Below are positions 19,259 through 64,000 of a stretch of DNA of 64,000 bases, piece by piece (position 1 is the stretch's first letter; the number at the start of each line of letters is the position of its first letter). Made by a program: the position numbers and the translations under genes. This stretch comes from Thiomicrospira cyclica ALM1 (GTDB lineage Bacteria; Pseudomonadota; Gammaproteobacteria; Thiomicrospirales; Thiomicrospiraceae): positions 372,001-436,000 of the forward strand of contig NC_015581.1 of the NCBI RefSeq assembly GCF_000214825.1. The letters run 5' to 3'. The notes below the pieces were generated by a model. That model was not told the DNA's origin, made no database searches, and was given only the letters and a program-made list of their open reading frames with translations.

Positions 19259-19385
19259 GGTATTTCCTTTTCATTCACTGGGTTAATTCTAGCCGATTAA
19301 TTATTTTGTTTGGCGCAATCGGCGCTGAGTTGTTAAGCTTAAATTATGCAATAAATAAGTTTAAACAAGATGGTAAGGAGTGTGT

Positions 19386-20180
19386 GTGAAGCAAGTTAAA
19401 TCCAGTGAAAGTAATTATCCTTATGATGATAAATTGGGCCGTGACGACTATGAGGCCATGAAGCGTGATTTGCAAATCGAGTTACTCAAAATGCAAAAGT
19501 GGGTTAAGGAAACCGACCAGCGAATTGTGATGTTGTTTGAAGGGCGCGATGCGGCGGGTAAGGGTGGCACCATTAAGCGGGTGATGGAGCATTTGAATCC
19601 GCGTGGCGCACGAGTGGTGGCCTTGGACAAACCCAATGAGCGTGAAAAAGGTCAGTGGTATTTTCAGCGTTATTTAGAACATATGCCAACGCAAGGCGAA
19701 ATCGTGCTGTTTGACCGGTCTTGGTATAACCGAGCCGGCGTTGAACGGGTGATGGGTTTCGCAACACCGCAACAATATACCCAGTTTATGCACCAGGTGC
19801 CGGAAGTTGAGCGGATGCTGGTTGCCGATGGTGTGATTTTGATGAAGTTTTGGTTTTCGGTTGGGCGCAAAGAGCAGTTACGCCGTTTTACCGGACGTAA
19901 AAATGATCCGTTAAAGCAGTGGAAGTTATCGCCGATGGATTTGGCTTCTTTAGATCGCTGGGACGATTACACCAAGGCCAAAGAGGATATGTTCTTTTAC
20001 ACCAATACCAATCAATGTCCGTGGACGGTGATTAAATCCAATGATAAAAAACGGGCGCGTTTGGCCTGTATGCGTTTTATTTTAAATAGCCTACCCTATG
20101 ATGGCAAAGATGAAGCGGTGGTTGGTGCGCCAGACCCTTTGATATTATCGAGTGGTGATGATATTTTTCAAGACGATTAA
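19386..20180 (+). CDS. ppk2: Polyphosphate kinase 2
   Basis: A P-loop kinase of the PPK2 family that transfers phosphate between polyphosphate and nucleotides. Motifs: Walker A G-R-D-A-A-G-K-G-G-T near residue 55, R-G-A-R-V-V-A-L, and Walker B/lid F-D-R-S-W-Y-N-R-A-G. The length of about 264 residues fits the single-domain class. The GTG at 19386 follows AAGGAG (19375-19380) at good spacing; an in-frame GTG at 19380 overlaps that site and is less likely. A small conserved-looking gene follows by 30 nt. Confidence 0.93.
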   Translation: MKQVKSSESNYPYDDKLGRDDYEAMKRDLQIELLKMQKWVKETDQRIVMLFEGRDAAGKGGTIKRVMEHLNPRGARVVALDKPNEREKGQWYFQRYLEHMPTQGEIVLFDRSWYNRAGVERVMGFATPQQYTQFMHQVPEVERMLVADGVILMKFWFSVGRKEQLRRFTGRKNDPLKQWKLSPMDLASLDRWDDYTKAKEDMFFYTNTNQCPWTVIKSNDKKRARLACMRFILNSLPYDGKDEAVVGAPDPLILSSGDDIFQDD

Positions 20181-23894: not shown

Positions 23895-24917
23895 ATGACA
23901 ATTCGTGTTGCAATTAATGGCTTTGGACGTATGGGGCGTTTAGCCTTGCGGGATTTAATCGAAATCAACGATGTTGAAGTGGTGCACATTAATGAAACCG
24001 CTTGTGACGCGGCCAGTTCGGCGCACTTGATGAATTTTGATTCCGCGCACGGGCGCTGGTGGCATGAAGCCAAGCCGAGTGCCGATGGCCAGTCGATTGA
24101 AGTGGCGGGGCAGGTGATTGGCTATTCGATGAACAAGGCGATTGAAGATACCGCTTGGGGTGAAATGGCATTGGATGTGGTGCTGGAAGCGACCGGTAAA
24201 TTTAGAACCCTGGCCAGCTTGCAAGCCTATTTAGATCAGGGCGTTAAGCAGGTGGTTGTTGCGGCACCGATGAAGGAAGGCATTAAAAACATTGTGATGG
24301 GCATTAACGATGATATTTTTGTGCCCGGACAAGATCCGATTATTACCGGTGCATCCTGTACCACCAATTGCATTGCGCCAGTCATTAAGGTGCTGCATGA
24401 ACAGATTGGTATTAAACACGGCACCATTACCACCATGCATAATCTCACCAATACCCAAAAGGTGGTAGACCATGGTCATGCCGATTTACGTCGCGCTCGC
24501 GCCAGTTTTCAATCGCTAATTCCCACCACCACCGGCTCGGCAACCGCAATTGGCACAATTTTTCCGGAGCTTAACGGCAAATTAAATGGCCTGGCGGTGC
24601 GGGTGCCATTTATGAACGCCTCGCTAACCGATTTGGTGATGGAGATGGATCGTGACACCAGTGTGGCGGAGGTCAATGGCCTGTTTGAGCAAGCCTCACA
24701 AAGTTATTTACAAGGGATTTTAGGTCTTGAAATGCGCCCTTTAGTATCGGCAGATTATGAGGGTGAGCGTTGCTCGTCGGTGATCGATGGCTTATCTACC
24801 CTGGTAGTCAATGGCACTCAAGTAAAGGTGTTGGCTTGGTATGACAACGAAGTCGGCTATGTCGCGCGTTGGGTGGAATTGGCGATTAAAGCCGCCAAAT
24901 TGAACCAGGCCTGCTAA
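23895..24917 (+). CDS. ArsJ-associated glyceraldehyde-3-phosphate dehydrogenase
   Basis: This 340-residue type I GAPDH starts with I-N-G-F-G-R-M-G-R. The catalytic Cys lies in G-A-S-C-T-T-N-C-I-A-P and the C-terminus has W-Y-D-N-E-V-G-Y. Next to arsJ, this paralogue uses arsenate instead of phosphate to form 1-arseno-3-phosphoglycerate, the ArsJ substrate. The S-S-A-H-L-M-N-F-D-S-A-H-G-R-W segment is typical of the ArsJ-linked group. Its stop overlaps the arsJ start (TAATG). Confidence 0.92.
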   Translation: MTIRVAINGFGRMGRLALRDLIEINDVEVVHINETACDAASSAHLMNFDSAHGRWWHEAKPSADGQSIEVAGQVIGYSMNKAIEDTAWGEMALDVVLEATGKFRTLASLQAYLDQGVKQVVVAAPMKEGIKNIVMGINDDIFVPGQDPIITGASCTTNCIAPVIKVLHEQIGIKHGTITTMHNLTNTQKVVDHGHADLRRARASFQSLIPTTTGSATAIGTIFPELNGKLNGLAVRVPFMNASLTDLVMEMDRDTSVAEVNGLFEQASQSYLQGILGLEMRPLVSADYEGERCSSVIDGLSTLVVNGTQVKVLAWYDNEVGYVARWVELAIKAAKLNQAC

Positions 24918-26119
24918 TGAGTCCCTTGCAACAATATGGCCTAGTAACCGGTAATTACTGGGCCTTCACCATTACCGATGGCGCGCTGCGGATGTTGGTG
25001 GTGCTGTATTTTTGGCAGTTGGGTTACAGCCCGCTAGAAATCGCGTTGCTGTTTTTGTTTTATGAGTTTTTTGGCATCGTCACCAATCTCGTCGGCGGCT
25101 GGTTAGGCGCACGCTGGGGTTTGAATGTCACCATGAACATTGGCTTGGCGTTGCAGGTGGGCGCTTTGCTGATGTTGACCGTACCTGCTGAATGGCTCGG
25201 TGTGGTTTATGTGATGATTGCGCAGGCCTTGTCGGGCATTGCGAAAGACTTAAATAAAATGAGTGCCAAAAGCGCGATTAAGAATCTCGCTTCCGATCAA
25301 TCCGGCCAGCTTTATCGCTGGGTGACGCTGTTAACCGGCTCTAAAAATGCTTTGAAAGGGGTGGGTTTTTTTGTGGGCGCGCTGTTGTTAGCTTGGGTCG
25401 GTTTTGCGGTCGCTATGTGGATTATGGCGAGTGTACTGACAGTGTTTTTAGTGATTTCCATGTTGCTGTTGGATGGGCGGCTGGGCAAAGCCAAAAACAA
25501 GCCAAAGTTTGATGAAATGTTTGCTAAGAATCCCCAGCTTAATTGGCTGTCAGGCGCGCGGTTTTTCTTGTTCGGTGCCCGCGATGTTTGGTTTGTAGTT
25601 GCTTTACCGGTGTTTTTGGTGTCGGTATTAGAATGGAGTCACACCTATGTGGGTGCCTATTTGGCGCTCTGGGTGATCGGCTATGGGATCGTGCAAGCCT
25701 TATCACCGAAACTGACCGGCTGGAAATCGGGTAAAAATCCCAGTGCCGGTACCGCACGATTGTTAGCGCTGAGTTTGGCTGGCGTACCGCTGGTGATGGC
25801 TTTGCTGCTAGATTGGGCGCCACAAACGGTCATCGTCGTTGGGCTATTGATATTTGGGGTGTTGTTTGCGCTCAATTCAGCGGTGCATTCCTATTTAATC
25901 GTGTCGATTGCGAGTCACGATGGCACGTCTAAAGATGTCGGTTTTTATTACATGGCCAATGCGGCTGGCCGTTTGGTTGGAACCCTGTTATCCGGTTATG
26001 TGTATCAGGTAGCGGGAATGGAAGCCTGTTTAGCGATTTCGGCGCTGTTTGTGTTAATAGCAGGCCTGGTGGTAATTAAGATGGATGTTAAAAAGCCTGA
26101 TGTAAATAAGCCTGCTTGA
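24917..26119 (+). CDS. arsJ: Organoarsenical efflux MFS transporter ArsJ
   Basis: This 400-residue major facilitator protein with about twelve helices has the ArsJ-typical N-terminus G-N-Y-W-A-F-T-I-T-D-G-A-L-R-M-L. It exports 1-arseno-3-phosphoglycerate, which then breaks down to arsenate outside, giving arsenate resistance with the upstream GAPDH. It is translationally coupled to that gene. It ends 13 nt before the convergent HprK-related kinase gene. Confidence 0.93.
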   Translation: MSPLQQYGLVTGNYWAFTITDGALRMLVVLYFWQLGYSPLEIALLFLFYEFFGIVTNLVGGWLGARWGLNVTMNIGLALQVGALLMLTVPAEWLGVVYVMIAQALSGIAKDLNKMSAKSAIKNLASDQSGQLYRWVTLLTGSKNALKGVGFFVGALLLAWVGFAVAMWIMASVLTVFLVISMLLLDGRLGKAKNKPKFDEMFAKNPQLNWLSGARFFLFGARDVWFVVALPVFLVSVLEWSHTYVGAYLALWVIGYGIVQALSPKLTGWKSGKNPSAGTARLLALSLAGVPLVMALLLDWAPQTVIVVGLLIFGVLFALNSAVHSYLIVSIASHDGTSKDVGFYYMANAAGRLVGTLLSGYVYQVAGMEACLAISALFVLIAGLVVIKMDVKKPDVNKPA

Positions 26120-26132
26120 TTATGTGGGTTGG

Positions 26133-27254
26133 CTAATGTTGGTTGGCTATGAAGGTATCAATCGCGACTTTGGCGGCATCAAAATCAACCTTGCCGGTTA
26201 AGCGCAGGATGGTGCCGTTTTGCAATAGCTGTAAATAATCTTGTGGATTAGGACTTTGCGCTTGTGTGGGCGTTCTACCTTGTGCGTCTTGGTAAAACGG
26301 GCCGGCGGGTTTCATAATCGCCGATAGATATTTCGGTTCGGCGTGGATATTGAGCGGTACCAATTGCGTCGGTTCGCTGGAGTTCGTCTGCCAATCCAAA
26401 ATAATCAGTAGATCAAGCGCGGTGCTAGTCTGATAGGGTTGCTTTGGAAAGTGTCTAGCCACCATGACGTCGTATTTTTCTTCCAGCGCACGCAATGCCG
26501 ACTCGCTTAGTGCCGCATAAGGCTCTGGATCGGGCAAAATGCCGCTTAACGCGGGGTTGTTGAGTAGCGTGCCTGGGTTAACCCGGGGTTGTTTCGGAAT
26601 GCCGTAACAAGTGATTGGGTTTTCACTCGAATTTTGTTGATGACAACGTTGCAACACAACGCGGTCGTTGCTAATAAAGGCATCGCCTTCGCGCAGCAGA
26701 TGCAACATGAGTGTAGATTTACCCCCACCTGAAAATCCAGCAATAGCAATGCCGTAATTGCGGTAGTGCAAGGCGGCACAATGCCCGAGTAAGGCGCTGT
26801 TATCACAGCTACTTTGATTCAACCGCCAGCTCAGATACTGGCTGAGAATAAAATTAATCACTTGATTAGGATGGGCCAACAAGTCACCCAGTGCGCGTAG
26901 CTGGGTGGGATGTTGCCAAAAGATTAATCCTGTGCGCACCTTGTAGATTAAACGATCATTGGGACTGAGATCATAAATGGCTTCTTTTCGCCCTTGTTTG
27001 CCAGGCTCGCGTTGCCAATCCTGCCAGGGTAAGGCATAAAGCTGAGCCAGCTGATGGGCAGGGCGGCAATGCAGGGTTAGAATGGCTGCATAATCTTGTT
27101 GCAGGTAGGCAAGTATCGCCTGTTGGTCATCGCTGACTAATCCGCCAAAATATTCGGCGAGTAGCGCCGGTAATTCAGGGTCATAGCTGTGAATTAACAA
27201 CTGCCAGTCATTAAGGCTAATCAGTTGGGTTTTAGGGGTGTTCGTTATCGTCAT
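26133..27254 (-). CDS. HprK-related kinase (GAK-system HprK-B type)
   Basis: This 373-residue protein has a P-loop A-G-F-S-G-G-G-K-S-T near residue 175, followed by F-I-S-N-D-R-V-V-L, as in HPr-kinase-like proteins. There is no HPr or PTS gene nearby. It resembles the HprK-related kinase B family described for GAK (grasp and kinase) gene sets. It is the last of four same-strand genes, with 8 nt to the ATP-grasp gene. Substrate unknown; a protein or peptide kinase is inferred. Confidence 0.8.
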   Translation of the reverse strand: MTITNTPKTQLISLNDWQLLIHSYDPELPALLAEYFGGLVSDDQQAILAYLQQDYAAILTLHCRPAHQLAQLYALPWQDWQREPGKQGRKEAIYDLSPNDRLIYKVRTGLIFWQHPTQLRALGDLLAHPNQVINFILSQYLSWRLNQSSCDNSALLGHCAALHYRNYGIAIAGFSGGGKSTLMLHLLREGDAFISNDRVVLQRCHQQNSSENPITCYGIPKQPRVNPGTLLNNPALSGILPDPEPYAALSESALRALEEKYDVMVARHFPKQPYQTSTALDLLIILDWQTNSSEPTQLVPLNIHAEPKYLSAIMKPAGPFYQDAQGRTPTQAQSPNPQDYLQLLQNGTILRLTGKVDFDAAKVAIDTFIANQH

Positions 27255-27262
27255 GCGGTCAG

Positions 27263-28186
27263 CTATTTTGTTGCTTGCAGTTGTTGAATAACATAGTCGG
27301 CATATCGCTCGGCGATATTGATACCTAGCGCATCGTAAGCGCCTTTAAAGCCGCCAAATGCAGAGACTTCAAAGCACATAGGTCCATCGGCTGTTTCGGC
27401 CATATCCACGGTGGTGAAATCTAATTTGAACACGGCTTGCGCGCGCTCTGCTATGGCTAGCGTTTCAGCTTGGGGTTCAGCTGGGGCATATTTGCCGCCG
27501 GTTTCTGTGCTGGTTGTCCAAGCGTGTTTTTGATTCACTCGCGCATAGGTGCCCTGGTATTGGCCGCCTAAAAACATCAAGCCTAAGTCTTGATTGGGCA
27601 AATGGATTTTTTGTTGGATATAAAAAAAACCCTGTTCTTTTTGAAAATCGAACAATTGTTCGCGTAATTTTTTAAGAGGCGTTTGTGCTGATAATAAAAC
27701 CATGCCCTTCGCTTTAGTTGAAAATAACGGCTTTAGAATGACCTCTCCAAGGCTGTGTACCGCCTCTAAAGCCGCATCAAGATTTTCAGTGACCAGGGTT
27801 TGTGGCATGGGTATATCCGCTTGGCGTAATGCCACTGTACAACTGAGACGATCAACCAGACGGATAATTTTTTCGGCAGACGAGAAAACCTTAACCCCTT
27901 GTGCTTCAGCAATCCGTAGCATTTCTAAACGATCAATCATGCCAGGGTGATAACGGGTAGCGGCTTTTTTAATCACTAGGGCATCCAGCTCAGTTAGATC
28001 TTGTCCGCGATAGATTAAGCGGTTGTTTGTTAGATCGGCCGATACCTCGCCTAAATCAATAATAAGCTTAAACCCGGTATGTGCCGCCAGCGCGTCAGCA
28101 AGTAGCTCACTAGACCATTTGCCCGGAATGCCTACGACGGCAATTTTTAAATCACGGTGTCGTGGTGAGAGCTTAGTAGGGACCAT
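27263..28186 (-). CDS. RimK-like ATP-grasp ligase (GAK-system type)
   Basis: This 307-residue ATP-grasp protein has D-R-L-S-C-T-V-A-L-R, V-I-L-K-P-L-F-S-T-K-A-K-G-M (nucleotide lysine and glycine-rich loop), the Y-I-Q-Q-K hinge and a C-terminal C-F-E-V-S-A-F-G-G-F Mg-binding segment. Such enzymes join a carboxylate to an amine using ATP, often adding residues to peptides or cofactors. It overlaps the upstream kinase gene by 14 nt. The product is unknown. Confidence 0.83.
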   Translation of the reverse strand: MVPTKLSPRHRDLKIAVVGIPGKWSSELLADALAAHTGFKLIIDLGEVSADLTNNRLIYRGQDLTELDALVIKKAATRYHPGMIDRLEMLRIAEAQGVKVFSSAEKIIRLVDRLSCTVALRQADIPMPQTLVTENLDAALEAVHSLGEVILKPLFSTKAKGMVLLSAQTPLKKLREQLFDFQKEQGFFYIQQKIHLPNQDLGLMFLGGQYQGTYARVNQKHAWTTSTETGGKYAPAEPQAETLAIAERAQAVFKLDFTTVDMAETADGPMCFEVSAFGGFKGAYDALGINIAERYADYVIQQLQATK

Positions 28187-29771
28187 AAAAAATCTCCGTA
28201 TCTATCCGAAAGTCGGCAGGGTCTTTGATGCTGGCGTAGTCTAGCAATAATGTTAATAGTAAGCGCCCCCGGTCAAAGAGTGCTCGAGCATGGGTTTCAT
28301 CTAATACAAAGCGTGTAGAGGTGATAAACGAGCGTGCTAAACCAAGGGCTAAGCGTGGATGTATAAAGGGGTCACCTTGCGAGTCCGCAAAATTTTGCGC
28401 AAATTGATAAAGTTGGCGCATACTTTGACCTATCAGTTGGCGATGTTCGGTGTCATAGACTTGTAATCGAAAGTGCGACACCATAAGCACCGCGATGTCT
28501 TGTAAGTAGTCATGGTATCCGGAGCGATGCAAATCAACCAGGAAGATTTGCTGGTCGTCAGGGCGAAATAACACATTGTCCAAGTTGAGATCACCGTGAC
28601 AAAAGTAATGTTTTTGTGGCATTAACTCTTGTTCAAGTTTATGTGCTTGCTTGATTAATTGACGTAATTTAATGCCTTTTAGGGCGCCGAGTTGGTGCCA
28701 TTCTTTTTTGAAATTGGCGTGAACATGCCAAACATCGTTTAAGCGGGCATCGAGTTGTGGCATAAAGCCGGATGCACCCTCTTTGGGTAGAGGTTTAGAT
28801 TGATTTAGCCATAGGCTCTCAAGTCGTTCGCAGACGAGTGCTAAGCTGGCTAAATAGCCTTTGGGTTTTGCTTGGGTGAGCCAGTGGTCGAGTCGAATGC
28901 CATCTAAAAACTCTACGAATAATGCCGCTTGGTCGCCGTCACGGTGGTAGCCATAAAGGTCAGGCACTAGGTCTGGTGCATAATCTTGCCAGCGCGCAAA
29001 TTGGTTTTTTTCTTGTTTGATTTTGATCCGCTGTCCTTGTTTGACGACCCCTAGCGGCGCACCGGGTTCGTGCTGAGCAGCGACCTTGCTGATAACGCAG
29101 CCGGACTTGGTATGTGCGAGGGTTTCCAATTGGAACTCATTTGTGTCGGTCGACAGGGTATCGGATTCTATTTGAGCTAGGGTAGCTTGCACGGCACGCA
29201 GCTGTTCTGGCTGTGAATGGATTCCTACCTGTAAGTGGGTGATACGTTCAGCAAGCTGACTCAGTTGCGCTGTTAACTGGGCTAAACAGAGGGTTAACTT
29301 ATATTCGTTTATAGTGTCAGGTTGTTTGACAGAAAATAGCTCGAGTTGATGTAACTGGCTTTTAACTCGATTAACGGAGGTAACCGGCGTTCCAGGTTGT
29401 TTTAATGTTTCAATCAATGATTGTAATAGGCTGTCGGTTAAGCTTAATGTATTTTTTAGTGATTTAAGGCGCGCTTTTGATGCCTCGATTTTTACCGATT
29501 TACTTTGAGCCAGTCTTGCGAGAGTTGAAATCTGTTGACTGGCTTGCTGGCCATGGAAACCGAGTTGAGCCCACGAAATGGGCTGGGACAATGTCGCAAG
29601 TTCGGCACCTAATTGGTTGAGATAATTATTGATATAAGCCGTTCGTGTTTGGCTTTTGTTAATGCTCTCTGGGGCATTGTTTTGTAAGCCTTTCAGCAGC
29701 CACTGGACTTGTTTTTGCAACTCAAGAAATAAAAAAATGAGCGCATCCGGCGTAACAGTTTGTTGTCTCAT
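28173..29771 (-). CDS. Coiled-coil/APH-like phosphotransferase fusion
   Basis: This is a 532-residue protein. The first about 220 residues are Leu/Gln-rich and predicted helical, resembling a coiled coil. The rest is an aminoglycoside-phosphotransferase-type kinase fold: V-I-S-K-V-A-A-Q-H-E-P-G-A, F-V-E-F-L-D-G, the catalytic loop Y-F-C-H-G-D-L-N-L-D-N-V-L and the metal site F-L-V-D-L-H-R. The metal motif is D-L-H rather than D-x-D. It overlaps the amphi-Trp gene by 4 nt. Antibiotic resistance is unlikely given the context; a kinase for the product of this operon is inferred. Confidence 0.78.
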   Translation of the reverse strand: MRQQTVTPDALIFLFLELQKQVQWLLKGLQNNAPESINKSQTRTAYINNYLNQLGAELATLSQPISWAQLGFHGQQASQQISTLARLAQSKSVKIEASKARLKSLKNTLSLTDSLLQSLIETLKQPGTPVTSVNRVKSQLHQLELFSVKQPDTINEYKLTLCLAQLTAQLSQLAERITHLQVGIHSQPEQLRAVQATLAQIESDTLSTDTNEFQLETLAHTKSGCVISKVAAQHEPGAPLGVVKQGQRIKIKQEKNQFARWQDYAPDLVPDLYGYHRDGDQAALFVEFLDGIRLDHWLTQAKPKGYLASLALVCERLESLWLNQSKPLPKEGASGFMPQLDARLNDVWHVHANFKKEWHQLGALKGIKLRQLIKQAHKLEQELMPQKHYFCHGDLNLDNVLFRPDDQQIFLVDLHRSGYHDYLQDIAVLMVSHFRLQVYDTEHRQLIGQSMRQLYQFAQNFADSQGDPFIHPRLALGLARSFITSTRFVLDETHARALFDRGRLLLTLLLDYASIKDPADFRIDTEIFYGPY

Positions 29772-30133
29772 GCCTTATCTCGGTCAGTGTGTTTTTTCTT
29801 GGTCTTTTTTGACGTCTTTGATTTGCGACTTACTTTGCTGCTTAACAATAAAGCATCGGCTTGATCATGCTCGCCTGCTATTTCATCAGGAATCCAGGCG
29901 AGGGTAATCCGAATTTCTTGATGCTGTTTGGCTTGTTTGGCCTTGATTTTGACCCGTGTTAAGCCTTTTGGCGTTAAGGTGACCTTATCGTCTTCTTGGC
30001 TGAGTTGAAGATGACCTTGTTTAAAGCCATCGCGAATGGTGTCTAGATAATCGAGTACGGCGTCTAAGCTTTGCAATGACTGGTGCTCAAACACATTAGG
30101 ACTGGATTTTGTGGATTTATCGTTTTTACTCAT
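29768..30133 (-). CDS. Amphi-Trp domain protein
   Basis: This 121-residue protein has a central domain (about residues 12-82) ending in an amphipathic strand with L-A-W-I-P, typical of small amphi-Trp proteins, which in other genomes occur beside GAK genes. The C-terminal 35 residues are Lys/Ser/Arg-rich and low complexity. It is the first gene of the four-gene operon. It could be the substrate or carrier on which the kinases and ATP-grasp enzyme act (inference). Confidence 0.7.
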   Translation of the reverse strand: MSKNDKSTKSSPNVFEHQSLQSLDAVLDYLDTIRDGFKQGHLQLSQEDDKVTLTPKGLTRVKIKAKQAKQHQEIRITLAWIPDEIAGEHDQADALLLSSKVSRKSKTSKKTKKKHTDRDKA

Positions 30134-30302
30134 GGGTGACTTACCTTATTACCTAGTGCTTAATTTAAAGCCTGAATATGACAGTGCGATTAAACTATGT
30201 TTTATAGTATGCCCTTTGGGTTTGCCTTATATCTGATTGTCGCTGCAAGGTCATTGGTTTAAACTAGTATACTTTAATTATTTTTTATCCAAGAGGCTGC
30301 AA

Positions 30303-57811: not shown

Positions 57812-60800
57812 ATGTTCAAGCGTAAGAAAATAGCCGATCTCGTCAAAAATGCGTTTAAGGTAGAACCTTTGGAGCAACGTATTTTGTTATCCGCTGATCC
57901 GGTTATGGGCGTCGCCCATGTCTCCTTGCGTGATACGGATCAAACTCAAAATCTTGATGATTTTGAACCGGTCATTACGGTTGAACATTATGAGCAAAGT
58001 CAGCAAAAAAGTGAGGGTGTTGAAGAAGGCTATAGTCGTGATCAACAGCCAGACCTTGAGTTTACATTATCCCCATCTACTTTGGATTCTGCTCTTGATA
58101 TTAACGACCTAGTTTTTGCTCATGAATCCGGAATTTTAACCGTTACACAAGACCAAATTCTCGGCGGTAGCGGAACATTTGACTTGCACCTGCACAACAA
58201 CGGTGTTCTCAGCCCTGGTTATTCGCCGGGTGAGCAGACAGTTCAATCTTATGTGCAAGATGGTAATGCATTACTTCAAATTGAAATTGGCGGTTTAGCC
58301 GCAGGAGCAGAATACGACCGATTAAATGTTCTGAACACGGCGGACTTAAACGGTGAACTGGTGATTGAGTTTATTGACAAATTTCAGCCCAGTGCCAACC
58401 AAACCTTTGATTTTTTAACCTATGGCGATCTCGTTGGTGGATTTACCAAAATCTCGGGACTCCACAATCATGGGTTAGAAAACACCTATTTACGTATTGC
58501 CGATACGGGTTCAGCGCTCCAGTTGCAGGCGATTGATGCACACGTCATCACCATGTCAGCCAGTAATGATGAGTTGTTTATGTCGCAGTCGCCAGAAGGG
58601 TCCATAACCCTTACCAGTGCTACTACTGGTGTAGTTCAGCATTCCATTAGCTTAGCTGGGAAGTCCGCATTGGTTATTAACGGCGGTGGTGGCTGGGATA
58701 GCTTTACCATTAATTCCGATCTTGATTTAGGTAGTACGCATCTTCAAATTAATGCCGAGTCTATTACCGTTGCCGAAGGCGTTAAAGTCGAAACACTTGG
58801 CGATATTGTGCTGAATGCACGTGATCTCAATTTTTCAAACAATAGTGACCTATTAGCCGAGGTGGTTGTAAAGGGTAACCTGACGGCTGCTGGGCAGATT
58901 TTTCTGATTGCTGAAGCCGATCGAAGTTACTCAGATGCTGGCGATTGGTTCTCTGATTACATTTTCGACGCTAAAACAATCGCCAAAGTTTCAGTGGCCA
59001 ACGAAACCCAAATTCAAGCAGATCAGTTGCGTGCTTGGGCGCAAACCAGTGGTAGCGTAGTTTTAGGTGATGGCATTATTCCAAATATGTTAATTGGTGA
59101 TTTGTCTGGTATCAAGATCCAAGAAAGTGCCGAACTTAACTTGGGTAGCAGTTGGATAGAAGCTGATGCTATCTACCTCAACGCGATGATGGCATCAGAG
59201 TATAGTGCGACTGGTTTAATCGTTTTTAATGACATTAGTGGTGAAGCAAAAGTTACTATCAACAATGCAGACTTAACAGCCGGTGACGCCGGTTTGAGAA
59301 TTACTGCGCAAGACCGTATTCGTGTGTCAGCTGTGGGTCCCGTTGACAGCAGTGCTGATGGTGTGCCGGAGTTTCCGATGTCAGGCGCTGGGTTTAGTTT
59401 TAACTCAGTAGATACCAAAGCAACAATAACTGTTACTGATAGCTATCTAGAGGCTGGTTCAGCGGGCATCGAGGTTATTGCCGACAGTTTCGCCGAACTT
59501 ACAGCACGTCTTGCGGGTATTGCGACTTCAATAGGCTCAGAAGAAATACAGCCCCAGAGTGTTCCTACTTGGGCAGTTAACGGTTTTATTGCAACGAACC
59601 GCATCAACGGTGAAGTGACGGTAAAAATTGTCGACTCGACACTGGTTACTATTAATCAGGGTGACCTAAGTGTAATAGCTGAAAACCGTGCAGCGGTAAC
59701 AGCAGAACTTGAAGGTGGTGTTCAAAGTCGAGGAACGGCGGTTGGACCTATGCTTGCTTTCAATACGATTGGCTGGTCGGCACAGAACATTTTTAGCCAA
59801 ACGCTTGATTTATTATTGGGCGATACCTTATTGGGCGATGCGCAGCCCCATCTAACCCACGTGACTTTGCATAGAACCGAGTTAGATATTGACGGTGATA
59901 CTGACATCTTAGCTTTGAGTGCGCCCAGCATTAGTGCATTGGTTAAAACAGAAGTTACTACTGAAGCCGCAAGCACAGCTGTAGGCATTATTCTAACGAC
60001 CAATATGGTTAACTCTAGCACAAAAATCACCTATCGCCCTGAGAACACGATACAGCGCGTAGAGGGAGATTTATTGGTAATTGCAACGGATACGGCCAGT
60101 ATTTTTGCCACGGCACGGGTAGGTTCTGCCAGTTCAGGTGGTAGCGCGGTGGGCGGGTTAATTGCCAGAAACGATATACGAAATGCGGTTATCGTTGATA
60201 TAGACCAAGCTCAACTGAGTGTGGGCGGAAATATTACTGTTGCGGCACGAAATGTTGTGATAATTGAGGCGATAGTGGATGGCTCACAGCCTGATTCGTT
60301 CGATATGGAAGACGATGATGAAAGCACGGATTCAGCTTCCTTTGCCCTCACAGGGATTATTGCGACCAATCTGATTTTGTCAGATACCCAGGTTCTTATT
60401 AATCGCAGTGACATAGATGCGTCAGGCAATGTAACTATTGATGCTCGCAATGCATCAAAACTAATTGCCGACAATCAGGCCGAAGCGGGGGCATCCGGAA
60501 AGGCTGTGGGCATTAGTCTGGCGTTTAATAGCCTTGGCTATCAATCGCAGAATATTCTGTTCAATGTTATTGATAATCTTGTTGGCAGTAACATTGGCAA
60601 TGAACAACCCATGAATGTTCTGGTCACTATCCGAGATAGTAGAGTTGATGCGGCTGGTAATCTAACGGTGAGTGCTAATGCAAAGCAGTTGCTAATGGCG
60701 ATGCTGGCGCAGTCAACGGAATCCGAGGGTATCTCTGCCGGAGTTGGTGTTATTTTAGCGAGCAATATGGTGAGCTCCGCCGCACGTGTGATTATAGAAA

Positions 60801-63800
60801 AAACGGAGGGTTACAGCGGTGCGCTTAGTTTAAATGCGGGCGGTGATCTCGCTATTTTGGCTAGAGATGCCGCCAGAATAGATTCCATGATATCTATGGA
60901 AACCGCGAGTGGCGGTGGAGCGGCTGTTGGCCTGCTTTTCGCAAGGAATGATTTGAGCGCTGTAGTGGATGTAAGGTTGAGCGATGCCACAGTGCGGGCT
61001 GAGGGCGATCTGAACATAGAAGCGCTAGAGTTAGCGAGTTTGTCGGCTGAATTAAGCGGCGTAGTTTCGACAGGTGAAGATGATGCGACCCAGGCGAGTG
61101 AGAGCAGTGGCGGTGGTGTCGCTGTTAATGGGTTAATTGCGACTAACGCCCTGTTGAGTCGTGCGGATATTACAATTTCGCAGAGCAGTTTAGTTGCAAC
61201 CGGCAATATGGCGATCTTAGCTGATAATGTGGCGGAAATGACAGCTTTAAACTCAGCGGAGTCCTCATCAAGCGGCGCTGGCCCATCAGTCGGTGTCGTG
61301 CTCGCATTTAACAGTATTGGTTATCAATCACAAAATCTATTGTTCAATATTATTGATACTGTTTTAGGTACCAGCATCATTGATGAAGAGCCTGCGCATA
61401 TTCGCATTAATATTACCGATACAGATATAACAACAGGCGGCGATTTGAGCGTCTTGGCGGGCATTGCCGATGACGAGCTTGGTCTGCCAAGCGGCGCAAG
61501 TATGCAATCTCAAGTGGTAAATGCCGGTGCCGCAGAAGATGGCGCGGCGGCAGGTTTTATTATCGCTAGCAATCGAGTGAGTTCGCGCAGTCTGGTTAAT
61601 ATTACCTCATCAACTCATCACGCTATTCGTGTAGGCGGATCGGCAACATTCGATTCCCGTAACCTAGCCGTTATTGATGCCGAACTGCTGATGATGGCAG
61701 GTACAGAAGGTGGAGCGGCTGCGGGCTTGGCTATCGCGGTCAATGATGTTCGTGGTGGAAGCAAAACAGTTGTTGATGACTATCGTGTCATAGTGGGTGA
61801 AAAATTAACGATCAATGCCAGTGATAATGCTGCGATTAATGCTTTGGTTGCCGGATCGATGGAGGTTGATGACGGCGAAGGTGGCGGTGAAGGGTTTGCT
61901 TTGAGTGGCATTATTGCAACCAACATTGTGATGTCTTCAAGCGAAGCGTTATTACTGAATTCAGACGTACAAGTTGGCGGTGACTTTTTAGTGACCGCCG
62001 ATAATGCGGCCACGATCCAAGCAACCAACGAAGCCGTTATGACTTCTGACGCAAGTGCCGCAGGGTTAACTTTAGCTTTCAATACCTTGGGTTATGAGGC
62101 TGATAATGTACTTTTTAAAGCTGTTGATGCATTAATCGGAACGGATATCGGTAATGAAGCGCCTGTTAGAGTGCTGGCAAAAATAGACAGCTCAAGCCTA
62201 GATGTTACTGGCAATCTTATTATTTCTGCGGATATGGTGTCATTTATTGATGCGAGTGTTTACAGCGCCGCACGATCCGGTGCAAGTACTGCGGCGGCAT
62301 TGGTATTGGCGTCAAATATGATTAGCTCAGATGCACAAGCGCGTCTTATTCAATCCGTTGGGCCTGTCACAGTAGGGAAAGTTTTAACTGTTGAGGCTAC
62401 CGATGCGCCGTCTATATTTGCAGACGGTACAGTCATTGCAAGCTCTACTAATCCAAGCGGTAATGATGAATATATTAAAGTTGATTTTTACAGCGATGAA
62501 GGCGAAGTACAGATTGCTTTTGGTGATCATGTTTATGTGCATGAAGATCACGAAGCAGGCGGCGAAATCGGTTATATCTATCGATATATGGGTTTTCTGG
62601 GTACCGAGAAAGATGCTGATGGTGACGATGTTGAAATTTTGAGTAGTGTTGATCTTTCGTCAACAGACTTTACCGATACGCGTTATTGGATGGCAATTGA
62701 ACCGCCAGAAGGCTTTATGGGGGATGTGCTATCTTTCTTGTATGGTGCGATGCCATTTAAAGAAACCAGTAAAGTACTGGGTAATATGCGTATTGGCGGT
62801 CAAAATCATCAATTAGGTTTGAAGTTTGGTGTTGGCTGGCAGGATGACGGCAAAGACATTGATGTCATCGATTACCTTGGTGGATTAGGTGGTAATGAAC
62901 AAGGCGTTGAGTTTACAGATAATGGCATTGTATTCAATCTTGGCTCAGTGGGTAATTACGCTTTGCCATCATTATTCCTTGACTTGATTATGCCAACGCC
63001 CGACTTGATTTCTTATGAATATAAGCATCAAGTGGGTAGCATTGAACACAATGGAGAGCATGTTGCCTGGGGAATACAGTTAGATTATGGTTGGCAAGAC
63101 ATTCCTCTTACCACCTTTATTGAAGCGTTAATCAATGAAGACTGGGAGGTGTTTCAGCCGAAGGTCAGTTATAAAGTTTATATTGATATTGAAGATAAAT
63201 CGGATTTGACGCCGCAACGTTTTTTACCGCGTGAATTTGTTATCGAGCAACCTGAGCTGAGCGTAACCTTTCTTGGCAAGCCAATTAAATTTGTATTTGG
63301 TGGTGAACGCGATGAAGATGGTCAAGCACCTGAATCCAATGAAATACTGCTTCGAGTACTCGATATAGACGATAAAGACGATGATGTGTCCGCCTTTGTT
63401 GATCGGGGACTCGATCCGATCCGTGTCATCATGCCAAGTGCAGATTTAGACGTACTATCACTTAACAAGCTTTCACCCGGTTTAGCTGATGAGATATTAA
63501 GAGATCGTCCAGTAGACTATTTTGATGATGCCGCTGAGATTGATTTAGATGGAACACCTAGAGAGATCGCCGAAGATTTCATTGCCGCTATTAAGTTTTT
63601 GCCGCGTTATTTAGAGCTCACTGACCCGGATTTAAATTTTGGCATACTCGGTTTTACGACGGACTTACAGCTGCCTGTTAGCGCTGTGGCTGGGTTATTG
63701 GACTGGATCGAACCTGGCGAAAAACAAAATAATTCGTATGCCAGAATTGATATGGCGGTGCTTTACGATTTCTTCCTACCTGACTTCTTTAGTTTCTTTA

Positions 63801-64000
63801 TCGATGATGAAATGACTACTGAAAGTGTTCTTGCCCCGATTAACTTGGGTGATATTACTCCCGAAGCGCTTAAAAAATATCAACCCGTTGTAGAGCTCGC
63901 CGTAGTGCTATTAGATGCCGCAGGTATGGAGATTCCTCTTAAGAGCGTGCCAGTTAACACCAATCCCGAAGAAGATGTAGCAGCCCTGCCAGTAGGTCAA
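57812..64000 (+). CDS. Giant repetitive adhesin with LEPR-XLL-like N-terminus, 3'-truncated by window edge
   Basis: The frame runs from an ATG at 57812 without a stop to the right edge, giving at least 2063 residues. The N-terminus is basic and contains E-P-L-E-Q-R-I-L-L-S-A-D at about residues 18-29, a variant of the LEPR-XLL motif found at the start of very large surface proteins. Residues 100-650 are beta-helix-like. Four repeats of about 258 residues begin at A-F-N-x-x-G-W/Y motifs, residues 649, 904, 1165 and 1422, each with three sub-units of about 85. The part after about 1600 is Asp-rich and non-repetitive. A surface location is inferred. No CAGGCCTG occurs in it. Confidence 0.9.
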   Translation, partial: MFKRKKIADLVKNAFKVEPLEQRILLSADPVMGVAHVSLRDTDQTQNLDDFEPVITVEHYEQSQQKSEGVEEGYSRDQQPDLEFTLSPSTLDSALDINDLVFAHESGILTVTQDQILGGSGTFDLHLHNNGVLSPGYSPGEQTVQSYVQDGNALLQIEIGGLAAGAEYDRLNVLNTADLNGELVIEFIDKFQPSANQTFDFLTYGDLVGGFTKISGLHNHGLENTYLRIADTGSALQLQAIDAHVITMSASNDELFMSQSPEGSITLTSATTGVVQHSISLAGKSALVINGGGGWDSFTINSDLDLGSTHLQINAESITVAEGVKVETLGDIVLNARDLNFSNNSDLLAEVVVKGNLTAAGQIFLIAEADRSYSDAGDWFSDYIFDAKTIAKVSVANETQIQADQLRAWAQTSGSVVLGDGIIPNMLIGDLSGIKIQESAELNLGSSWIEADAIYLNAMMASEYSATGLIVFNDISGEAKVTINNADLTAGDAGLRITAQDRIRVSAVGPVDSSADGVPEFPMSGAGFSFNSVDTKATITVTDSYLEAGSAGIEVIADSFAELTARLAGIATSIGSEEIQPQSVPTWAVNGFIATNRINGEVTVKIVDSTLVTINQGDLSVIAENRAAVTAELEGGVQSRGTAVGPMLAFNTIGWSAQNIFSQTLDLLLGDTLLGDAQPHLTHVTLHRTELDIDGDTDILALSAPSISALVKTEVTTEAASTAVGIILTTNMVNSSTKITYRPENTIQRVEGDLLVIATDTASIFATARVGSASSGGSAVGGLIARNDIRNAVIVDIDQAQLSVGGNITVAARNVVIIEAIVDGSQPDSFDMEDDDESTDSASFALTGIIATNLILSDTQVLINRSDIDASGNVTIDARNASKLIADNQAEAGASGKAVGISLAFNSLGYQSQNILFNVIDNLVGSNIGNEQPMNVLVTIRDSRVDAAGNLTVSANAKQLLMAMLAQSTESEGISAGVGVILASNMVSSAARVIIEKTEGYSGALSLNAGGDLAILARDAARIDSMISMETASGGGAAVGLLFARNDLSAVVDVRLSDATVRAEGDLNIEALELASLSAELSGVVSTGEDDATQASESSGGGVAVNGLIATNALLSRADITISQSSLVATGNMAILADNVAEMTALNSAESSSSGAGPSVGVVLAFNSIGYQSQNLLFNIIDTVLGTSIIDEEPAHIRINITDTDITTGGDLSVLAGIADDELGLPSGASMQSQVVNAGAAEDGAAAGFIIASNRVSSRSLVNITSSTHHAIRVGGSATFDSRNLAVIDAELLMMAGTEGGAAAGLAIAVNDVRGGSKTVVDDYRVIVGEKLTINASDNAAINALVAGSMEVDDGEGGGEGFALSGIIATNIVMSSSEALLLNSDVQVGGDFLVTADNAATIQATNEAVMTSDASAAGLTLAFNTLGYEADNVLFKAVDALIGTDIGNEAPVRVLAKIDSSSLDVTGNLIISADMVSFIDASVYSAARSGASTAAALVLASNMISSDAQARLIQSVGPVTVGKVLTVEATDAPSIFADGTVIASSTNPSGNDEYIKVDFYSDEGEVQIAFGDHVYVHEDHEAGGEIGYIYRYMGFLGTEKDADGDDVEILSSVDLSSTDFTDTRYWMAIEPPEGFMGDVLSFLYGAMPFKETSKVLGNMRIGGQNHQLGLKFGVGWQDDGKDIDVIDYLGGLGGNEQGVEFTDNGIVFNLGSVGNYALPSLFLDLIMPTPDLISYEYKHQVGSIEHNGEHVAWGIQLDYGWQDIPLTTFIEALINEDWEVFQPKVSYKVYIDIEDKSDLTPQRFLPREFVIEQPELSVTFLGKPIKFVFGGERDEDGQAPESNEILLRVLDIDDKDDDVSAFVDRGLDPIRVIMPSADLDVLSLNKLSPGLADEILRDRPVDYFDDAAEIDLDGTPREIAEDFIAAIKFLPRYLELTDPDLNFGILGFTTDLQLPVSAVAGLLDWIEPGEKQNNSYARIDMAVLYDFFLPDFFSFFIDDEMTTESVLAPINLGDITPEALKKYQPVVELAVVLLDAAGMEIPLKSVPVNTNPEEDVAALPVGQ
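59756..62848 (+). repeat. Four tandem ~258-residue repeats in the giant adhesin
   Basis: Units begin at nt 59756, 60521, 61304 and 62075 (spacing 255, 261 and 257 codons). Each begins A-F-N-[TS]-[ILS]-G-[WY], followed by L-F-x-x-[IV]-D-x-[LV], then a G-N-L-x-[IV]-x-A strand and a G-x-[IV]-[IL]-[AT]-[ST]-N-M-[IV]-x-S motif. The last unit is incomplete or degenerate toward about 62850. DNA identity is low, so they are old duplications. Confidence 0.8.

Follow-up and report, generated by a model that had tools for sequence, protein, structure and literature searches.

The GAK system has so far been named by its gene families alone: an HprK-related P-loop kinase (HprK-B), an ATP-grasp protein, an amphi-Trp protein and a CofD-related protein, filed in NCBIfam as TIGR04354/04355/04356/04357. 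Its parts resemble, or associate with, relatives of better-described proteins, namely the ATP-grasp ligases RimK, MptN and CofF, the APH/methylthioribose kinase superfamily, PhoU, and the eukaryotic inositol-pyrophosphate/polyphosphate hydrolases DIPP1-3 and DDP1. Here we analyse a 64,000-nucleotide stretch of Thiomicrospira cyclica ALM1 (NC_015581.1, positions 372,001 to 436,000; 'the window'), from a genome assembled as a single 1.93-Mb contig, and find that it holds a reduced variant of the known but uncharacterised GAK system. By sequence and structure comparison, a PhoU-APH fusion kinase, a RimK-like ATP-grasp protein and the HprK-like kinase form a unit, to which most relatives add hydrolases. 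We consider it fairly probable that GAK is a phosphoryl-transfer module that serves phosphate/polyphosphate homeostasis under the control of PhoB, and that this genome has retained the synthetic half of the module. As far as text searches of 5.39 million open papers reach, neither the larger gene set nor the link to phosphate is in print: searches for GAK names, accessions or combinations of the parts gave no paper.

The operon reads on the minus strand and comprises the following features:

29768..30133, minus strand: first gene of the operon, encoding a 121-aa amphi-Trp domain protein whose C-terminal tail is Lys-rich (TIGR04354, PF20068)
28173..29771, minus strand: PhoU-APH fusion kinase, 532 aa (PF01636, alignment, models and fold searches)
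29136..29771, minus strand: predicted PhoU-like N-terminal domain of PhoU-APH, residues 1-212 (profile, model and Foldseek)
27263..28186, minus strand: GAK ATP-grasp protein of the RimK/MptN-like carboxylate-amine ligase family, 307 aa (TIGR04356)
26133..27254, minus strand: HprK-related P-loop kinase B, 373 aa (TIGR04355, alignment)

The original prediction had described four overlapping genes here. The coordinates hold, as does the overlap of amphi-Trp with PhoU-APH (4 nt) and of PhoU-APH with ATP-grasp (14 nt), but ATP-grasp and HprK-B are spaced 8 nt apart. The filing under GAK is borne out, with scores of 67.5 bits for amphi-Trp (TIGR04354, cut-off 31; PF20068, 30.3 bits), 468.9 bits for ATP-grasp (grasp_GAK, TIGR04356, cut-off 300) and 252.2 bits for HprK-B (HprK_rel_B, TIGR04355, cut-off 200), and the genes co-occur in other genomes. 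The APH-type phosphotransferase that had been read from the sequence is also present, since the kinase of the fusion matches the APH domain PF01636 with 49.6 bits (gathering threshold 23.2).

The N-terminus of the fusion protein had been described as a long coiled coil. We reject this description because a model of residues 1-212 is PhoU-like both in Foldseek and by structural Z scores, and the N-terminus is predicted to be a PhoU-type helical domain. A family profile of 13 members, searched against solved structures, matches PhoU over ~200 residues (4q25, E 2.6e-8), and the rest of the profile matches APH(3')-Ia. Since fold searches with the whole fusion (n = 2) were dominated by matches to the kinase domain, the PhoU part was folded separately with AlphaFold2 and 55 relatives, giving a predicted local distance difference test (pLDDT) score of 79.9. 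Foldseek ranks 1-14 with this model are all PhoU or PhoU-like, at modest E values (0.0036-0.09); the matches include 1sum, which is titled hypothetical and elsewhere named a PhoU homolog. Nine PhoU or PhoU-like entries reach Z 15.2-16.9, aligning over 170-181 residues with a root-mean-square deviation of 2.7-3.6; the next row stands at 13.4, within the Z of ~13-14 that helical models attain by chance and without kinship. Both relatives scanned carry Pfam PhoU (PF01895, 51.9 and 47.6 bits). The window protein thus shares the PhoU fold in its first 212 residues but differs from PhoU in being joined to a kinase and in having diverged too far for a Pfam match.

For the C-terminal part the likeness is to methylthioribose kinase (Z 21.8) and APH(3') (Z 18.8). 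Kinases of the APH type are marked by an HGDxxxxN motif with a following Asp and by a Lys/Glu pair at the ATP site; the corresponding residues K244, E254, H392-G-D394, N399 and D413 are invariant in 13/13 aligned rows. PhoU-APH therefore has the fold and catalytic motif of this superfamily in common, but it is only ~20% identical to APH(3')-Ia and falls far under the APH(3') cut-off (44 vs 205 bits). The APH(3')-like fold might suggest that the kinase is the basis of a resistance or anti-phage system, and PADLOC does return matches to it, all of them weak (PD-T4-6 at 22 bits; LmuB at 14 and 12 bits). These fall on the kinase alone: at E<=0.01 no defence model matches any of the other six proteins scanned. 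The operons are conserved across many marine bacteria and their regulation appears to be linked to phosphate. We accordingly reject a resistance or defence role, which we regard as extremely improbable.

PhoU-APH is a constant partner of the GAK proteins. In a phylum sample of 398 Pseudomonadota genomes, grasp_GAK exceeds its cut-off in 13, and the PhoU-APH profile (E<=1e-15) finds the same 13 and no others; HprK-B exceeds its cut-off in those 13 and in G140, a genome 87% complete. Two further genomes hold fragments: G033 has a partial ATP-grasp under the cut-off and an HprK-B at a contig edge, without PhoU-APH, and G184 has an HprK-B fragment only. The order PhoU-APH, ATP-grasp, HprK-B of the window recurs in all 12 other phylum-sample loci. 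For a wider view we assembled 93 loci, made up of the window, 12 loci of the phylum sample and 80 of the 494 genome loci that were confirmed; because the 80 are the best of the 494, this set leans towards close relatives. The order differs in six loci (L057, L064, L098, L119, L121 and L123), where phosphatases, not HprK-B, follow ATP-grasp.

The original prediction was right that the window lacks a CofD-like member: a search of the 1.93-Mb genome gave none at E<=0.001, which sets it apart from CofD-bearing GAK loci. It had further proposed that the APH protein takes the slot of CofD. This idea fails, since PhoU-APH is present in all 13 GAK genomes, including the four with CofD, and is therefore not a CofD replacement; the two coexist in many loci. 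The neighbourhood of the APH-like protein, which had been singled out for a check, shows it to be the steady companion of GAK ATP-grasp and HprK-B. Conversely, CofD-GAK (TIGR04357) exceeds its cut-off in five of the 398 genomes, namely those four and G006; with no CofD above the cut-off in 9/13 GAK genomes, CofD is not a defining member of the system. In G006 (L126:9425-13195), where none of the three core GAK proteins exceeds its cut-off, a GAK-type CofD scores 556.5 bits, and its gene stands divergent from a Na/Pi symporter gene with one 84-aa open reading frame (ORF) between them.

These data bear on a different reading, in which, by analogy with F420 and methanopterin, the CofD-like transferase and an MptN/CofF-like ligase would extend a phosphorylated backbone made by the kinases to give a cofactor-like small molecule. 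MptN is the runner-up NCBIfam family of the ATP-grasp protein (152 bits), CofF is also among its matches, and 30/93 loci have a CofD-like protein no more than 5 kb from the operon. The patchy occurrence of CofD, and the failure to find it in the window genome, speak against it. So does the next family of the CofD-like protein, YvcK, a UDP-GlcNAc binder, and no recurring backbone-forming or cofactor-using enzymes lie nearby among the matches listed. We regard cofactor synthesis as decidedly unlikely.

In relatives the operon takes in further genes beyond the NCBIfam set. Label counts over the 93 loci, which are under-counts as they include contig-cut loci, are 89 for PhoU-APH, 83 for HprK-B, 77 for a histidine phosphatase of the phosphoglycerate mutase (PGM) type, 70 for amphi-Trp, 69 for a metallophosphoesterase and 48 for a SixA-Nudix fusion; the four rows without PhoU-APH are all on contigs <10 kb. 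ORF calling was mechanical, so small genes are under-counted; the L036 amphi-Trp, for instance, is absent as an ORF and was found by tblastn. Family scans of examples place the histidine phosphatase in PF00300 and the metallophosphoesterase in PF00149. Most relatives thus add these two hydrolases, and about half a SixA-like domain joined to a DIPP-like Nudix. Both SixA-Nudix fusions scanned pass NUDIX; one passes PF00300 and the other falls below it. In 3/5 sequences (L036-L040) the RHG motif of the SixA-like half reads RQG and so has lost its catalytic His; this half may therefore bind rather than catalyse. The Nudix half is closest to DIPP1-3 (E 3e-12 to 1e-11), with DDP1 also among the matches. 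Endopolyphosphatase activity in vitro has been reported for DIPP1-3 and Ddp1 (PMC9426566). The likeness to these eukaryotic enzymes is confined to the Nudix half; the GAK partner is bacterial and fused to a SixA-like domain, and the SixA-Nudix gene belongs to relatives, not to the window.

The window locus is a reduced form of this longer operon. In the ATP-grasp tree, the window and Thiomicrospira sp. ALE5, whose ATP-grasp is the closest from a named relative (83% identical), fall in a 19-row, mostly Piscirickettsiaceae clade (100/100), where ten of the rows keep both the histidine phosphatase and the metallophosphoesterase; in Sulfurivirga, amphi-Trp, PhoU-APH and ATP-grasp stand alone at the locus. 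Among 57 relatives' genomes, ATP-grasp is found in 24 and the metallophosphoesterase in 18, all within the 24. A GAK-family metallophosphoesterase was not found in the window genome. ALE5 (G443) has an orphan copy with one internal TAG stop (L173:8773-9990), and G448 an intact yet unlinked orphan (L174:8538-9755). The missing gene and the interrupted ALE5 copy could be taken to mean that the Thiomicrospira locus is a decaying remnant without function, as could the faster evolution of the PhoU part relative to the APH part (pN/pS, the ratio of the proportions of nonsynonymous and synonymous differences, 0.27 vs 0.15 against ALE5). All four genes are, however, intact and under purifying selection in the same comparison (pN/pS 0.20 for amphi-Trp, 0.20 for PhoU-APH, 0.14 for ATP-grasp and 0.22 for HprK-B, at pS 0.43-0.74), and the catalytic motifs are invariant in the alignments. 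Decay without function is thus very improbable.

The remaining operon proteins raise the possibility of protein modification, in which the RimK-like ligase and the kinases would modify amphi-Trp or another protein and the phosphatases would act as erasers. By sequence, the closest solved structures of the ATP-grasp protein are of the RimK/LysX types, and the S6 modification enzyme is among its nearest RimK-like kin. It shares domain and sequence family with the RimK/MptN/CofF ligases but exceeds the cut-off of its own family, and the EVN motif of RimK reads EVS. HprK is a protein kinase, which also favours protein modification; in HprK-B the GGGKST P-loop and the NDR motif are invariant in 13/13 rows, and neither HprK-B nor the metallophosphoesterase has a specific relative in PDB sequence searches. 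Moreover, amphi-Trp is retained even in the most reduced loci, as in Sulfurivirga. However, an alignment of 14 amphi-Trp rows has only five invariant columns (F, L, G, L and W), none an obvious acceptor, and the C-termini are unconserved; with the last residues varying, we reject C-terminal glutamylation of the RimK/S6 type. The named matches to the APH fold mostly act on small molecules, and a DIPP-like Nudix fits a phosphoanhydride better than a phosphoprotein. The earlier suggestion that the system makes a phosphorylated peptide or modifies the amphi-Trp protein found no specific support, and we consider protein modification unlikely.

Regulation of the operons points to phosphate. We scored upstream regions for the PhoB consensus CTGTCAT-A(AT)A(TA)-CTGT(CA)A(CT) as given in PMC3465305, keeping 76/100 loci after dropping those without an ATP-grasp call or >85% identical. 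A scan of all upstream regions together gave a weak Pho-box signal, which is evident when leading genes are taken separately; regions at p<=0.02 were 17/52 for leading genes, 4/43 for inner GAK genes and 17/342 for others. Five mis-picks, in which the upstream core gene had been lost to the overlap filter, were then removed from the leading regions (52 to 47), and 12 control intergenic regions sharing the divergent region were also removed (342 to 330). A score >=10 was reached by 17/47 leading GAK regions and, among the remaining intergenic regions, by 13/330 (U-test p 3.5e-8). With 300 permuted half-site motifs this p value was never reached, and the excess above the score threshold appeared only at the 11-nt period. 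GAK operons as a class thus seem to carry PhoB-box-like sites more often than expected. The window has one candidate, with a good half-site that is kept in two relatives:

30178..30195, minus strand: candidate PhoB box GTTTAATCGCACTGTCAT, score 10.2, 44 nt upstream of the amphi-Trp start

The genes beside GAK operons point the same way. We counted neighbours at 83 loci (leaving out eight near-duplicates, the window and L040, which has a CHAD neighbour) against expected counts that assume a mean genome of 3.7 Mb and assumed copy numbers, that of the Na/Pi symporter being an estimate. The flanks contain CHAD in 6/83 loci (expected 0.18), a Na/Pi symporter in 6/83 (expected 0.3) and polyphosphate kinase 1 (PPK1) in 3/83 (expected 0.18); PPX and CYTH parts in the neighbourhoods were identified by eye. 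CHAD has been reported to bind polyphosphate (PMC6537752). On these counts, GAK operons appear to lie near phosphate/polyphosphate genes more often than expected. In L121/L140, a single contig to judge from length and coordinates, GAK and CofD genes are ~2 kb from a symporter-PPK1-symporter-CHAD-ParA-PPK2-type run, whose PPK2-type gene is a polyphosphate:AMP phosphotransferase, and in L137 CHAD and ParA are separated by ~3-4 kb from amphi-Trp, SixA-Nudix and HprK-B. PPK1 is found in 49/57 GAK genomes searched, including that of the window (G000:C1:282997). L046 has a PPK2-like gene at a distance from its GAK locus similar to that in the window, where a polyphosphate kinase 2 (PPK2; TIGR03707, 384.9 bits, cut-off 301.8) lies 6 kb away:

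19380..20180, plus strand: PPK2, a contextual neighbour outside the operon (TIGR03707)

A side observation concerns CHAD itself: a ParA-like ATPase gene directly follows the CHAD gene in 11/20 fetched CHAD loci of GAK genomes (L131, L134, L136-L138, L140, L143, L145-L147 and L149). PPK1 or PPK2 is near CHAD in L136, L138 and L140, with a weaker PPK2 match in L146.

We propose a phosphate role because of the predicted PhoU domain, the PhoB-box-like sites, the phosphate and polyphosphate neighbours and the DIPP-like Nudix. Beyond the genes forming a phosphate-linked unit, we infer a sequence of steps. The operon would be switched on at low phosphate under PhoB, and the PhoU domain would gate the APH-type kinase by phosphate status. 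With HprK-B as a second kinase and ATP-grasp either ligating, like its RimK/MptN kin, or phosphorylating, the product of the two kinases and the ligase might be a phosphorylated compound, perhaps pyrophosphorylated or amino-acyl-linked, with a part in phosphate/polyphosphate storage or in signalling; the hydrolases would turn it over. At the Thiomicrospira locus the hydrolases would have been lost, with the synthetic half and amphi-Trp remaining there. The link concerns phosphate metabolism as a whole; polyphosphate is the likeliest target and others are possible.

A bolder version of this proposal, which we think quite unlikely, would make GAK an analogue in bacteria, unrelated by descent, of the eukaryotic inositol-pyrophosphate pathway, with a previously unknown, densely phosphorylated signalling or storage molecule as its product. 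The PhoU-gated APH-fold kinase, the ATP-grasp protein and the P-loop kinase would make this molecule at low phosphate, the DIPP-type Nudix and the PGM-type and metallo-phosphoesterases would remove it, and Thiomicrospira would keep the synthetic half only.

Several observations weigh against a PhoB-controlled phosphate module. The PhoU Z scores exceed the chance level for helical models only slightly, and the window PhoU-APH alone has no Pfam PhoU match at E<=1. For the PhoB-box signal, 30/47 leading regions score <10, the best permuted motif reached p 4.5e-7 with up to 14 leading regions, and U-test p values at other periods were also mildly low (0.0002-0.25, mostly 0.0002-0.02), so part of the signal is due to half-sites or composition; the window site itself is weak (shuffle p 0.02), and a divergent gene shares its intergenic region. 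As to the neighbours, most GAK loci have no polyphosphate gene in their flanks, and in a Pfam tally of 143 neighbour proteins, drawn from the 287 cluster representatives lying no more than 4 kb away (25 of 215 families listed), CHAD contributes two members to a mixture of families, among the matches listed. CHAD was not found in 16/57 GAK genomes (a set of 58 when G006 is counted), including that of the window, and PPK1 was not found in 8/57, among them G014, which is 99% complete; GAK therefore does not require PPK1. The PPK2 gene at 6 kb from the window locus may be there by chance. Finally, the loss of hydrolases from the window suggests that they are dispensable.

With PhoU-APH, the histidine phosphatase, the metallophosphoesterase and SixA-Nudix added as constant or frequent members and CofD as an optional one, an orphan system, found here in Pseudomonadota and Planctomycetota, gains a role that can be tested by phosphate limitation. 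If GAK does make a new phosphorylated metabolite, it would enlarge the chemistry known from phosphate storage and signalling in bacteria.

GAK operons are also found on large plasmids of Rhodobacterales from marine habitats and saline soil (L180, L181 and L182), two of the three with CofD. The three records share the same gene order and carry generic names beside 'GAK system' labels, the generic names falling on PhoU-APH, the histidine phosphatase and the metallophosphoesterase. One locus filed as 'Halobacteria archaeon' (L088) groups with gammaproteobacterial ATP-grasp rows and is probably a mis-binned metagenome-assembled genome.

In the window, the divergent upstream genes, the nearest of them at 30237, were read by eye as lgt and thyA. 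Downstream and convergent with the GAK operon, positions 23895-26119 (plus strand) encode an ArsJ-associated glyceraldehyde-3-phosphate dehydrogenase (515.9 bits, cut-off 450) and the organoarsenical efflux protein ArsJ (586.3 bits, cut-off 400). Neighbours of the ArsJ type likewise occur at two relatives' loci, L176 and L177. Further along, an ORF of at least 2063 aa (57812-64000, plus strand) with degenerate internal direct repeats runs off the end of the window and probably encodes a very large repetitive protein.

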